From positions 1 through 24,881 of IMG/VR virus record IMGVR_UViG_3300003324_000372: 24,881 nt of DNA; one strand, 5' to 3'. Of the stretch, positions 21,060-24,881 are shown piece after piece. The notes below the pieces were generated by a model. That model was not told the origin of the DNA. It did no database searches and saw only the letters and a program-made list of their open reading frames with translations. Source of the DNA: a virus. The first letter of the stretch is position 1, and each line of letters opens with the position of its first letter. Position numbers and translations under genes: made by a program.

Positions 21060-21479
21060 TCACCTCAATGAAGCGTGCACTGCGAGAATCCTTCGACCCA
21101 GAAACACAATCACCGGCACCGTGACCGCATTACCCATCGTCTTGTAGCGTGGCCCATCGGCACACGTGCATTTCAGCGAGTCGTACTGCTCCAACGGTTG
21201 ACAGAGGCATGTCCATCCTGGAGGAAACCCCTGCAGCAATTCACACTCCGTCGGCGTGAGACGGCGAACGCCCATGGCTTCGACGTACTGTGTCCGTTGT
21301 CCGCCTTTCCCGTCTGATGTTGACAGTGTGGCCGCGACTGCATGCTGAGAATAAACGCGCTTCGCTTGAGCGTCCCACGGCGTCAGACAGGGCGGCATCC
21401 CTCTCCCGGAGCCGTCTTCGCCAGCGTTGAATCTTGTCGTGATGGAATGAGCGATGAGATGCCCCCCCCTGTGCTTCAT
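21060..21479 (-). pseudogene. C-terminal part of DNA cytosine methyltransferase, out of frame
   Basis: From about residue 7 this frame carries what the upstream fragment lacks: motif IX-like RRLTPTECELLQGFPPGW and motif X-like YKTMGNAVTVPV. No ATG-driven start with a ribosome site makes it a separate gene. It needs a one-base shift in the G8 tract (21462-21469) to join the N-terminal part, giving a complete protein of about 373 aa. It may be expressed only when the tract has seven G's or when ribosomes or polymerase slip there. Confidence 0.75.
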
Positions 21480-22182
21480 TGTCGTCCGGTCCGCCGGAGG
21501 CGAGATTGGTGAGCGCTTGACACACTAAATTCATATCGTCTTCCCCGCCTCTCCCTGGTGGGTTGATGCCAGGGCGATTAGAGCGGCTTCTAAGGCTGGC
21601 GGCAATGTCCGTCCCCACTTCTTCGCTCGACGCAAAATCCCCGCTGCCGCCTTGGGACTCAAAGAGTACTTGCTCGACACCTCGCTCTGTAGGACCGCCG
21701 ACAAAGAACACGCGGCGGCGGCGTTGCGGGACTCCGAAATACTGGCTGTCCAGCACTGCGTAGCCGACCACAGGCCAGCATTCCCGAAGTCCTTCAAGGA
21801 CCGTGGCCATATCCCGTCCGGCATGAGAGCTAAAGAGCCCTGGGACATTTTCAACGAGGCTCCAGGTCGGCTTGAGCGTTTTCGCAATGCGGACGAATTC
21901 ATGGAAGAGACCGGAGCGTTCCCCGGCAAGGCCGGCGCGTTTCCCGGCGACACTGAGGTCTTGGCAGGGGAATCCTCCGACGAGGAGATCAAGAGATTCA
22001 TCCCGGTCGCCAGGCCACTCCCGCACGTCATCCCCGCAGGTAACGTGTGGCCAGTGCTTTGCGAGGACTTTTCTCGCGAAGAGATCACGCTCGATCTGCC
22101 ATTTGATTTCGAATCCCGCATCTTCCAATCCTTTGTCGAAGCCACCCACTCCACTAAAGAGACTGCCGACCGTGAGCTTCAA
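21241..22182 (-). CDS. DNA cytosine-5 methyltransferase (Dcm-like), N-terminal part, frame broken at G8
   Basis: Motif I (FSGVGGFDKG, 9-18), motif IV with catalytic Cys73 (GGFPCQDLS, 69-77), motif VI (ENVPG, 111-115) and motif VIII (QRRRRVFFVG, 153-162) define a C5-cytosine methyltransferase. After residue 240 the frame leaves the true sequence at a run of eight G's; the last 73 residues are nonsense and the motifs IX-X continue in another frame. It starts at TTG 22182 (AAGGTGG) by a TTGA overlap with the 117-aa gene. No partner restriction enzyme is visible, so it is an orphan, probably for DNA protection. Confidence 0.85.
   Translation of the reverse strand: MKLTVGSLFSGVGGFDKGLEDAGFEIKWQIERDLFARKVLAKHWPHVTCGDDVREWPGDRDESLDLLVGGFPCQDLSVAGKRAGLAGERSGLFHEFVRIAKTLKPTWSLVENVPGLFSSHAGRDMATVLEGLRECWPVVGYAVLDSQYFGVPQRRRRVFFVGGPTERGVEQVLFESQGGSGDFASSEEVGTDIAASLRSRSNRPGINPPGRGGEDDMNLVCQALTNLASGGPDDNEAQGGASHRSFHHDKIQRWRRRLRERDAALSDAVGRSSEARLFSACSRGHTVNIRRERRTTDTVRRSHGRSPSHADGV
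21462..21469 (-). repeat. Homopolymer G8 tract inside methyltransferase gene
   Basis: Eight C's on the plus strand, read as eight G's in the gene. Removing one G joins the two parts of the methyltransferase in frame. It could be a phase-variation tract, a slippage site or a read error. Confidence 0.85.
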
Positions 22183-22532
22183 TCCGCCACCTTCTGCGGC
22201 TTGAATGCCGCCATCTTCTCCGCGATCACATACGCCGACTCGACCTTATCCGACCATTGCCCGTCCGCCGGCACATCCAAGAACACCTGCTTCAACCGGC
22301 CCTCGATCGCGAGACACAACACGCTGAGATCCACGCCCGCATTCAGCCCCGCCGCGAGATACCGTTGCGCATCGGCCCAGAGCGAGACGAGGGGTGCGGC
22401 GGTGAGGTCTTGAGATCTCAGGACGAAAATTTCCTCGCCTTCATTGACGTAGATCACTTTCTTGTCAAATCCGAGGCGCTCCGTCGTGTCGCGTGGAGCT
22501 ATCTGGCAGCTCACAAACCCATCACCATTCAT
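22179..22532 (-). CDS. Phage protein of unknown function, 117 aa
   Basis: GGAGGAG precedes ATG 22532. The core FVLRSQDLTAAPLVSLWADA followed by helices and a final IAEKMAAFKPQKVAD recalls a frequent small phage protein (RxQD..A...V..WA... ending in a basic KVAD-like tail) without assigned function. It is translationally coupled to the methyltransferase by TTGA, so it may be a partner or regulator, but that is only from position. Confidence 0.65.
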   Translation of the reverse strand: MNGDGFVSCQIAPRDTTERLGFDKKVIYVNEGEEIFVLRSQDLTAAPLVSLWADAQRYLAAGLNAGVDLSVLCLAIEGRLKQVFLDVPADGQWSDKVESAYVIAEKMAAFKPQKVAD

Positions 22533-22574: not shown

Positions 22575-22796
22575 TCACACCTCCACTAGTTTGTGCTGCA
22601 CGGCGAGCCGGAGCATCTGCGCGGTATTCGACACGCGGAGCTTGATCATGAGGTTCGACCGATGCGCCTCCACCGTCTTCACCGAAATCTTCAGCTTGTC
22701 CGCAATCGACCGATTCCCGAAGCCGTGCCATACCCAGTGCAGCACTTCCGATTCTCGTGGCGTCAGCTTCGGAAGTCCTCTCTTCGTGAATGTCAT
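22575..22796 (-). CDS. Stand-alone LuxR/GerE-type HTH protein, 73 aa
   Basis: The protein is a single LuxR-type DNA-binding domain: LTPRESEVLHWVWHGFGNRS, ADKLKISVKTVEAHRSNLMI and KLRVSNTAQMLRLA follow the GerE profile (TxRExEVL...G.sn..IA..L.iS.kTVe.H). It has no sensory domain. AAAAAGGAGGG lies upstream and a dyad-site copy 43 bases before the start. It is a strong candidate for a transcription regulator of early or middle genes. Phage GerE-only proteins are known, but targets cannot be read here. Confidence 0.85.
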   Translation of the reverse strand: MTFTKRGLPKLTPRESEVLHWVWHGFGNRSIADKLKISVKTVEAHRSNLMIKLRVSNTAQMLRLAVQHKLVEV

Positions 22797-23481: not shown

Positions 23482-23889
23482 CTATTTCGTGAAGTCCTGC
23501 CACCAGTCCTGAAACGCCTCATACTCATCACACCACACCGCCGCGCCGCCCGCTTGTCGAATCGCTTGCAATTCCGCTACCTGTAACACCGTCGGTCTCT
23601 GCCCAAGCCGCTTACACTCTATGGCGAAGTAGCGTCCCCGATAGCATCCCACAATGTCGGGGAGGCCGGCGGTATAGACGGAGCCGTGGATTTTACGGGC
23701 ACGACAGCGGGGGACGGCTTTGAGATGGGCGAGGATGCGCGCCACGAGGGCTGATTCACGAGCTGAGTTTTCAGCGCGAGAAAGCCCGAGCGATCGTTTT
23801 TCAAATAGGCTTGATCCAGCAACTCGACGAGGTCGAACACCAACGGGGGATGCCCCTCGCCCATTGTGCCCGCGCAAATCTCTCTCCAT
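23482..23889 (-). CDS. VRR-NUC domain nuclease
   Basis: From residue 45 the PD-(D/E)xK-type VRR-NUC pattern is clear: E45, then KIHGSVYTAGLPDIVG (D78), FAIECKRLGQ (E91-x-K93) and TVLQVAELQAIRQAGG (Q103). The first 40 residues are arginine-rich and overlap the C-terminal half of the 107-aa frame, so the true start is uncertain; only ATG 23889 or TTG 23877 is available. Alternatively a frameshift from the 107-aa protein joins it. Such nucleases act in phage recombination or replication next to helicases, as here. Confidence 0.8.
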   Translation of the reverse strand: MERDLRGHNGRGASPVGVRPRRVAGSSLFEKRSLGLSRAENSARESALVARILAHLKAVPRCRARKIHGSVYTAGLPDIVGCYRGRYFAIECKRLGQRPTVLQVAELQAIRQAGGAAVWCDEYEAFQDWWQDFTK

Positions 23890-23942
23890 TCATCCCTCCA
23901 ATCTAAGTCAATAACCTGTTTCGCCGCCGCCCACCTGCTCAT
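23619..23942 (-). CDS. 107-aa protein overlapping the nuclease in another frame
   Basis: ATG 23942 overlaps the helicase stop (ATGA). The first ~60 residues look real (SRWAAAKQVIDLDWRDEWRE, HPPLVFDLVELLDQAYLKND). The last ~45 are Ser/Pro-rich and lie over the nuclease core, so they may be a by-product of frame overlap. A single-base shift near 23760 would fuse the good part to the nuclease. Function unknown. Confidence 0.45.
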   Translation of the reverse strand: MSRWAAAKQVIDLDWRDEWREICAGTMGEGHPPLVFDLVELLDQAYLKNDRSGFLALKTQLVNQPSWRASSPISKPSPAVVPVKSTAPSIPPASPTLWDAIGDATSP

Positions 23943-24881
23943 CGATACCCCGTGATGCTGAGCCCGACTGGCTGCGCCCAATACAACGCTTCCTTGGCGC
24001 GCGTCATCCCCACATAGACCATCCGCCGCACACTATCTTGCGATTCCCCTGGCGTCGTCCATTCGCGGTAGCCAGCTGGCGATAAATCCGGAAACAACAC
24101 CACAATCTGACTTTCTCCGCCTTTATACGAGTGGATCGTGCCAATCGACACGTGCGGCTTCGCCCGCAGCGCCGACACCCCACGCGCTTCGAGAATGGCG
24201 CACGCATACCCCATCGGTTTTTCATACGTCTTCAGGAGATGCTGCTGAAGCCAATTGATATTCCCAGAGGTCGCGGCGTCCGCCGCCTCATCACTCGGCA
24301 TCCACGCGTCCAAGTCTTCAGCCGCCACGGTAAGGGTGGCGGTCTCCGTTGCTTCCGCCTTTTTCCGCATGGCCGTCTTGGCCCCACGCGCAAACACGGT
24401 GTCCGCTTCCAGCGACGAGGCCCAGAGCCAGAGATCCCGGTAGGTCCACCACTTCCCGGCATCCTGCACCTGGCGATACGCCAGCAGCCGATCCGCCGCA
24501 CTGATGGTTCCAGCTCGCCCCATGAGCGGATTCCAATCACCGCGTTGCTTGCGGTACGGGTTCCAAAAAGGGATGCCCCACGCTCGAAGTTGGTGTTTAA
24601 TGGGATCGATAAAGAAAGAACAGGAAGCCAGGAACGCCACGCTCTTCCCTTGATCAAGCCAGCTCTCCAACTGATCCTTGAGGGGGAGGAGGTATTTGTA
24701 AGTGATATTGAGTCCGCCCACTTCGCCATCATACTCGCGAGGTTGGTACTCTTTCGGCATGCGCTGCGTCACCGCCTCAATCCATCTGACTGCTGCAGCA
24801 TGCACGGCACGAGGCACGCGATACGACTGATTGAGCACGCGGACTTGCTCCGGCGGAAGTGGCGGCGAGAGAAAGGTATCC
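23939..24881 (-). CDS. UvrD-like DNA helicase, C-terminal part, cut by window edge
   Basis: The frame is open to the window edge, so the ATPase N-terminus is missing. Visible motifs are motif IV-like LNQSYRVP near the edge, motif V IGTIHSYKGGES and motif VI VYVGMTRAKEAL (about residues 232-243 and 274-285 counted from GTG 24838). This is superfamily-1 UvrD/Rep-type helicase layout with a central 2B-like insert. It would unwind DNA in phage replication or recombination and is followed by the nuclease. The ninth codon region near 24786 holds a possible eighth dyad site. Confidence 0.85.
   Translation of the reverse strand, partial: DTFLSPPLPPEQVRVLNQSYRVPRAVHAAAVRWIEAVTQRMPKEYQPREYDGEVGGLNITYKYLLPLKDQLESWLDQGKSVAFLASCSFFIDPIKHQLRAWGIPFWNPYRKQRGDWNPLMGRAGTISAADRLLAYRQVQDAGKWWTYRDLWLWASSLEADTVFARGAKTAMRKKAEATETATLTVAAEDLDAWMPSDEAADAATSGNINWLQQHLLKTYEKPMGYACAILEARGVSALRAKPHVSIGTIHSYKGGESQIVVLFPDLSPAGYREWTTPGESQDSVRRMVYVGMTRAKEALYWAQPVGLSITGYR
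24786..24805. repeat. Possible eighth dyad site
   Basis: CTGACTGCTGCAGCATGCAC on the plus strand matches the site consensus at about 16 of 20 positions. It lies in helicase coding sequence, so chance is harder to exclude than for the other seven. Confidence 0.35.

Follow-up and report, generated by a model that had tools for sequence, protein, structure and literature searches.

The 24,881-base virus record described here (IMGVR_UViG_3300003324_000372; the window, in what follows, is this whole stretch of DNA) carries a C5-cytosine methyltransferase gene whose reading frame is divided at a run of eight G's, and the explanation that we favour, with a probability of about 55%, is that this G8 is prone to slippage, that it lies in the non-conserved linker between motifs VIII and IX, and that the phage population mixes full-length and broken alleles. 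The recorded allele would be the frame-broken state, from which a one-base change of the tract would restore a single 373-aa enzyme by uniting the frames. If the relatives described below are a guide, slippage during phage DNA replication would alter the tract length at high frequency, one length class making the full enzyme and the other lengths leaving two fragments (off, or working as a two-fragment enzyme), and the population would be a mixture of alleles and hence of methylated and unmethylated genomes. We infer that the tract varies within the phage population and that its change is reversible, selected and able to alter DNA methylation. The usual role of phage methyltransferases is protection from host restriction; this may be the purpose here as well, and in hosts with methylation-dependent nucleases the broken allele would be at an advantage.

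In bacteria, methyltransferases that vary in phase through homopolymers are known. The M.Hpy300X-like gene of H. pylori, for instance, belongs to a type III m6A system, carries a G9 tract and is phase-variable (PMC12003011). As in the bacterial poly-G/C methyltransferases, the tract of the window lies inside an ORF and a one-base change joins two frames; unlike the H. pylori gene, however, the one described here is phage-borne, orphan and of the C5-cytosine type, has its tract in the linker ahead of motif IX, and is so far a predicted switch. No report of homopolymer phase variation of phage-encoded C5-methyltransferases was found in the open-access literature searched, which does not by itself prove novelty.

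The methyltransferase gene and its G8 tract

All the motifs looked for are present and in order (Table 1), with I, IV, VI and VIII in the upstream frame (alpha) and IX and X in the downstream one (beta), as the original prediction had read them. Both frames match PF00145 in Pfam, with E-values of 4.6e-47 and 1.3e-9, one per frame, and alpha and beta cover positions 2-167 and 249-322 of the profile in order. The joined frame, for which about 373 aa had been anticipated on a one-base change of the tract, is exactly 373 aa long and scores 181.4 bits against TIGR00675 (dcm; cut-off 100.65), a cut-off that beta alone (P0001) does not reach (35.5 bits). Since the Pfam, NCBIfam and PDB profile matches (HhaI and HaeIII among the latter) agree, the enzyme family is settled and, read through, the gene is predicted to encode an ordinary 373-aa C5-cytosine methyltransferase of the Dcm superfamily. 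Most C5-methyltransferases carry all their motifs on one polypeptide, M.AquI being an exception, and in the window the motifs are spread over two frames, which part at the G8.

Table 1. Features of the divided methyltransferase gene and the adjoining ORF (positions in the window)
Feature	Positions	Strand	Basis
Whole C5-cytosine methyltransferase gene, two frames	21060..22182	-	PF00145 in both frames; joined reading 373 aa
Alpha ORF, 313 aa, TTG start at 22182	21241..22182	-	ORF translation, homology
Beta ORF, 139 aa, open from ATG at 21479	21060..21479	-	ORF translation
G8 tract at the frame junction (C8 on the + strand)	21462..21469	-	sequence
Motif I (SLFSGVGGFD; VGSLFSGVGGFD)	22135..22170	-	sequence; conserved in A4
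Motif IV with catalytic Cys (GGFPCQDLSVAG, PCQ)	21943..21978	-	sequence; invariant in A4
Motif VI (ENVPG)	21838..21852	-	sequence; invariant in A4
Motif VIII (QRRRR, QRRRRVF)	21712..21726	-	sequence; conserved in A4
Motif IX (RRLTPTECELLQGFP; VRRLTPTECELLQGFP)	21222..21269	-	sequence; conserved in A4
Motif X (YKTMGNAVTVPV)	21111..21146	-	sequence; conserved in A4
Upstream ORF, function unassigned	22179..22532	-	ORF call; no family match

The frames do meet at the tract, as had been proposed: the homology of alpha stops there, its final ~75 aa being an out-of-frame reading, and alpha runs 239 nt into beta. At this point the two frames are one base apart, and a one-unit change in length toggles the full-length ORF. 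At its other end, the TTG start of the methyltransferase overlaps the stop codon of the upstream ORF (TTGA). Beta has an in-frame ATG four codons ahead of the tract, formed from N-E codons (AATGAA) and preceded by a weak GGA only, without a clear ribosome site.

Is the recorded allele, then, switched off, as the original prediction held? The broken frame stands and the off state is putative, as natural C5-methyltransferases, and engineered ones too, work as two polypeptides when split at this place (PMC3404938), and many of the phage relatives are split genes. The AlphaFold2 prediction for the joined chain, suggestive only because it was built on 14 sequences, is mostly confident over residues 1-175 and 304-373 and has a pLDDT below 50 over residues 176-303, which include the tract. 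A break in such a linker may leave the folded domains unharmed, and several C5-methyltransferases reassemble from separated halves (PMC3404938), so that "off" is better read as "frame-broken".

The tract is also exceptional within its own genome, being the sole G/C run of at least 7 in all 24.9 kb. With the threshold lowered to 6, the window has two G/C runs vs about 13 expected under a dinucleotide model, and the genome seems to avoid such homopolymers, this site excepted. The G8 lies inside an ORF, at odds with the genome background, and belongs to the length range (a homopolymer of about 7 or more) by which contingency genes are recognised. None of the other window genes scanned that have a recognised family looks broken. 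Neither a second copy of the phage (sought with the exact flank pattern and a variable gap in between) nor a sister phage (sought by a terminase-based search, which returned relatives at ~50-56% identity only) was found; tract-length variation between otherwise identical genomes was seen in relatives, namely in Omegavirus and in the pair L343/L376.

G runs in related phage methyltransferases

In 41 related IMG/VR loci, collected for their protein similarity without regard to tracts, 24.7 kb lie between motifs VIII and IX, and this variable region contains 18 G runs of at least 8, vs one in 164 kb of flanking sequence, and C runs of at least 8 are absent from the same loci. The variable-region runs number 23, 21 and 18 at thresholds of at least 6, 7 and 8, respectively, i.e., nearly all runs that reach 6 also reach 8, whereas chance gives a steep fall-off. 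A simulation on 62 beta ORFs, in which synonymous codons were redrawn from the usage of each locus, yielded a mean of 1.8 runs and a maximum of 7 in 1000 draws, vs 29 observed, the set having been found with a module pattern that permits a run but does not require it. This rules out that the runs merely reflect Gly-Gly stretches combined with the use of GGG codons. G runs in phage methyltransferases are far commoner than chance or codon usage would produce. In 20 records (402 kb), picked for having a tract, nearly every G run of at least 8 is inside the methyltransferase gene. The idea of phase variation gains support from these G8-G12 runs, so far above expectation in related phage C5-methyltransferases, and the supposition that such tracts would be uncommon in a phage fails for this gene family, many phage relatives bearing them.

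The sequences also indicate that these runs slip. A scan with the pattern of one module (ETW..GGV), allowing any length between its two anchors, matched at least 80 contigs; among the 80 matches listed, 35 have a G run of at least 7 and 45 an interrupted one (GGAGGAGT and similar), with a bimodal distribution of run lengths. Frame breaks occur in 7 of the former (twice at G7 and five times at G9) and in none of the latter (Fisher p = 0.002, a guide only, contigs of one lineage not being independent). The locus L343 carries an in-frame G8 and L376 an out-of-frame G9, their flanks being 99.75% and 97.5% identical. A quick tree built on the alpha domain calls for 12 changes of the tract label, at least five of them forced by well-supported branches, and the out-of-frame alleles are scattered at the tips. 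Some of the out-of-frame IMG/VR alleles may be assembly errors, to which isolated mycobacteriophages are less exposed. It is among such isolates that the check on tract length in related phages gave its clearest outcome: six Omegavirus isolates from different places in the US show no mismatch over 603 upstream and 440 downstream bases (1043 in total), and their tracts nonetheless differ, with G8 in Dove, G9 in Beem, Dallas and Phoebus, and G10 in NihilNomen and JuicyJay. Near relatives of these six carry G9 (HokkenD, Yeet, Schatzie) or G8 (Bombitas).

The homologous methylase of the Omegavirus mycobacteriophages is annotated as two genes, and its alpha ORF stops after 248, 280 or 232 aa (747, 840-843 and 696 nt in the annotation). 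These phages (Dove, Beem, NihilNomen, Lucky2013 and others) share with the window the homologous alpha and beta parts, a G6-G10 run in the variable region with a frame change ahead of motif IX, and one alpha frame that reads into the DDNQAQAGHL module. In contrast to the window, their tract is in an STLQGGG module, ~35 codons upstream of the window's site, and some copies have an HNH insert. Because the frame changes a second time farther downstream, no tract length yields a single full-length ORF, and the Omegavirus switch, if acting, would work through the alpha/beta pair. In eight Omegavirus records (L210-L217: Hannaconda, Schatzie, Yeet, HokkenD, Bombitas, KashFlow, Thibault and Constella), alpha contains a long insertion that includes a gene for an HNH endonuclease; one of these records remarks on undetermined intron boundaries, and an intron in the methylase gene is possible.

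More generally, motifs IV and IX are in different frames in 38 of the 76 pairs found in related loci, which comprise several sorts of layout. In about 25 IMG/VR contigs, alpha ends in ...VVHEE* or similar and overlaps the start of a separate beta, M..LWFTKSRRAQNVDDYETW.EGGVVPTLNAF (overlapping pairs occur in L072, L074, L077, L090, L098, L107, L111, L115 and L119, among others), and this widespread two-gene C5-methyltransferase of environmental phages looks like a heterodimer of the M.AquI type. Many of the separate beta genes have a G8-G12 run ~17 codons from the beta start. That the runs of the IMG/VR relatives mark the alpha/beta junction itself was considered and discarded, as beta mostly starts before the run and in the same frame. 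Cassettes of 30-40 aa that recur, seemingly shuffled among phages, make up the stretch between motifs VIII and IX (L050, L086, L088, L098, L110, L111), for example IIDGTRVNDVRVYED..PTVISR.GTGGGNVPMI, FYGNRV.DIR.Q.D.INTLQARMGTGGNNMPMV and REGKPGGGKGPLLSED; several of them are glycine-rich and able to carry a G run.

Origin of the break and competing explanations

The closest relative, L003 (IMGVR_UViG_3300020202_000003), has a methyltransferase that is 68% identical overall and shares the C-terminal insert GWTCLCQP..YDS..C.C.DGPRY with the window; unlike it, L003 has one intact ORF, of ~391 aa from its second start, in which GGTGAACAT replaces the G run. An alignment of the two puts the junction at most a few codons away from the tract. 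A second relative, L450 (IMGVR_UViG_3300018079_000170), is a single open frame, the part compared starting after motif VI, and has the blocks EDDxNLV, SDDNEAQ-GHL and GWTCLC in common. Neither has the G run or the frame change and, since both are single ORFs, the ancestral state was most simply one chain and the break of the window is derived. Compared with L003, both halves have diverged mainly at third codon positions, with dN/dS of ~0.36 in alpha and ~0.14 in beta (where dS is saturated). These values show that both halves have been under selection through most of their history, so that the break is either recent or tolerated; they give no date for it. The synonymous divergence between the window (21472-22182) and L003 is ~0.5 in the alpha half and 2-3 in the beta half; the lower value in alpha suggests that the catalytic half may have recombined recently between phages.

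The module in which the tract lies, DDN[QE]AQ-x-GHL, occurs in about 50 other phage sequences among the matches listed, in frame in all of them, and there its site is almost never a run (mostly GCNGGN). The sole other run at this module among those matches is that of L479 (CAAGGGGGGCAT, a G6, in frame). The enriched tracts of the relatives sit in other modules, so the tract of the window is an independent, private gain, made in a region where phage methyltransferases repeatedly acquire G runs.

A slipping tract has to be weighed against other accounts, the first being an indel in the consensus or assembly at the G8, or else a one-off real frameshift, which would leave the gene intact or freshly dead without any switching. 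Homopolymers are the commonest site of indel errors, the phage is known from one virus record with no second copy found, its closest relatives are intact, and one event would suffice. We nevertheless consider this unlikely: the clustering of G runs in just this region across the family would then be accidental, the G8 stands out from a genome in which runs are otherwise depleted, and had its length simply been miscalled, a shorter run of G's would remain, in a family whose runs slip. It is also rather improbable that the recorded allele encodes a working two-polypeptide enzyme, with alpha (motifs I-VIII) and beta (IX-X, from the ATG at 21479) translated apart and assembling, so that the G8 would not be an off state. 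The precedent is M.AquI, a stable pair of subunits with motifs I-VIII and IX-X, respectively, whose two frames are divided in the variable region at the same place as in the window, and inactive halves of M.BspRI, M.BsuRI, M.HhaI and M.SssI complement each other (PMC3404938); the overlapping pairs of ~25 IMG/VR relatives, the two annotated Omegavirus genes, the in-frame ATG of beta and the position of the break in a linker of pLDDT below 50 point the same way. However, in contrast to the stable subunit pair of M.AquI, the nearest relatives of the window are single chains, with the split not kept in L003 and L450, and the junction is a G run; besides, the 239-nt overrun of alpha into beta differs from the tight overlaps of genuine pairs, and the beta ATG comes from N-E codons and follows a weak GGA.

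Slippage-based frameshifting had been put forward in the original prediction as an alternative; the ribosome or the RNA polymerase would slip on the run and give the joined protein at a fixed rate. The run is exactly at the junction, and a +1 move, or the loss of one G in the transcript, would join the frames; the usual slippery sites of phages are of the -1 type, and here a +1 would be needed. Furthermore, the tract-bearing relatives are mostly in frame already, and L003 and L450 have neither the run nor the frame change. Programmed frameshifting is accordingly very improbable and is rejected as the main explanation, given that its site is not conserved.

Wider reading and neighbouring genes

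Beyond the window, it can be proposed, tentatively and at somewhat less than even odds, that C5-methyltransferases with selected poly-G contingency tracts ahead of motifs IX-X are widespread among tailed phages of varied hosts and habitats, whose populations would continually yield methylated and unmethylated genomes, the window being one independent gain. Such phage-side phase variation would plausibly be a hedge between nucleases that cut unmethylated DNA and those that cut methylated DNA. Were phages to switch their own methylation so frequently, a plaque-purified stock would be an epigenetic mixture, with a bearing on the infection of restricting hosts and on the reading of split "methylase" annotations, as in Omegavirus. 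The idea lends itself to a direct test, as M. smegmatis mc2 155 supports the growth of Omegavirus isolates.

Among the neighbouring genes scanned, no cognate restriction enzyme was recognised, which fits the description of the methyltransferase as an orphan. Two ORFs upstream of it (22575-22796) there is a stand-alone helix-turn-helix protein of the LuxR/GerE type (73 aa; PF00196, 8.8e-20). Farther on are a small nuclease matching PHROG 93 (endonuclease; 23482-23889) and, adjoining it, the C-terminal part of a UvrD-like helicase (23939-24880), which are likely to form a recombination/replication module cut by the end of the record. Taken together, the LuxR-type protein, the nuclease and the helicase suggest that the methyltransferase lies in a replication or regulation region.
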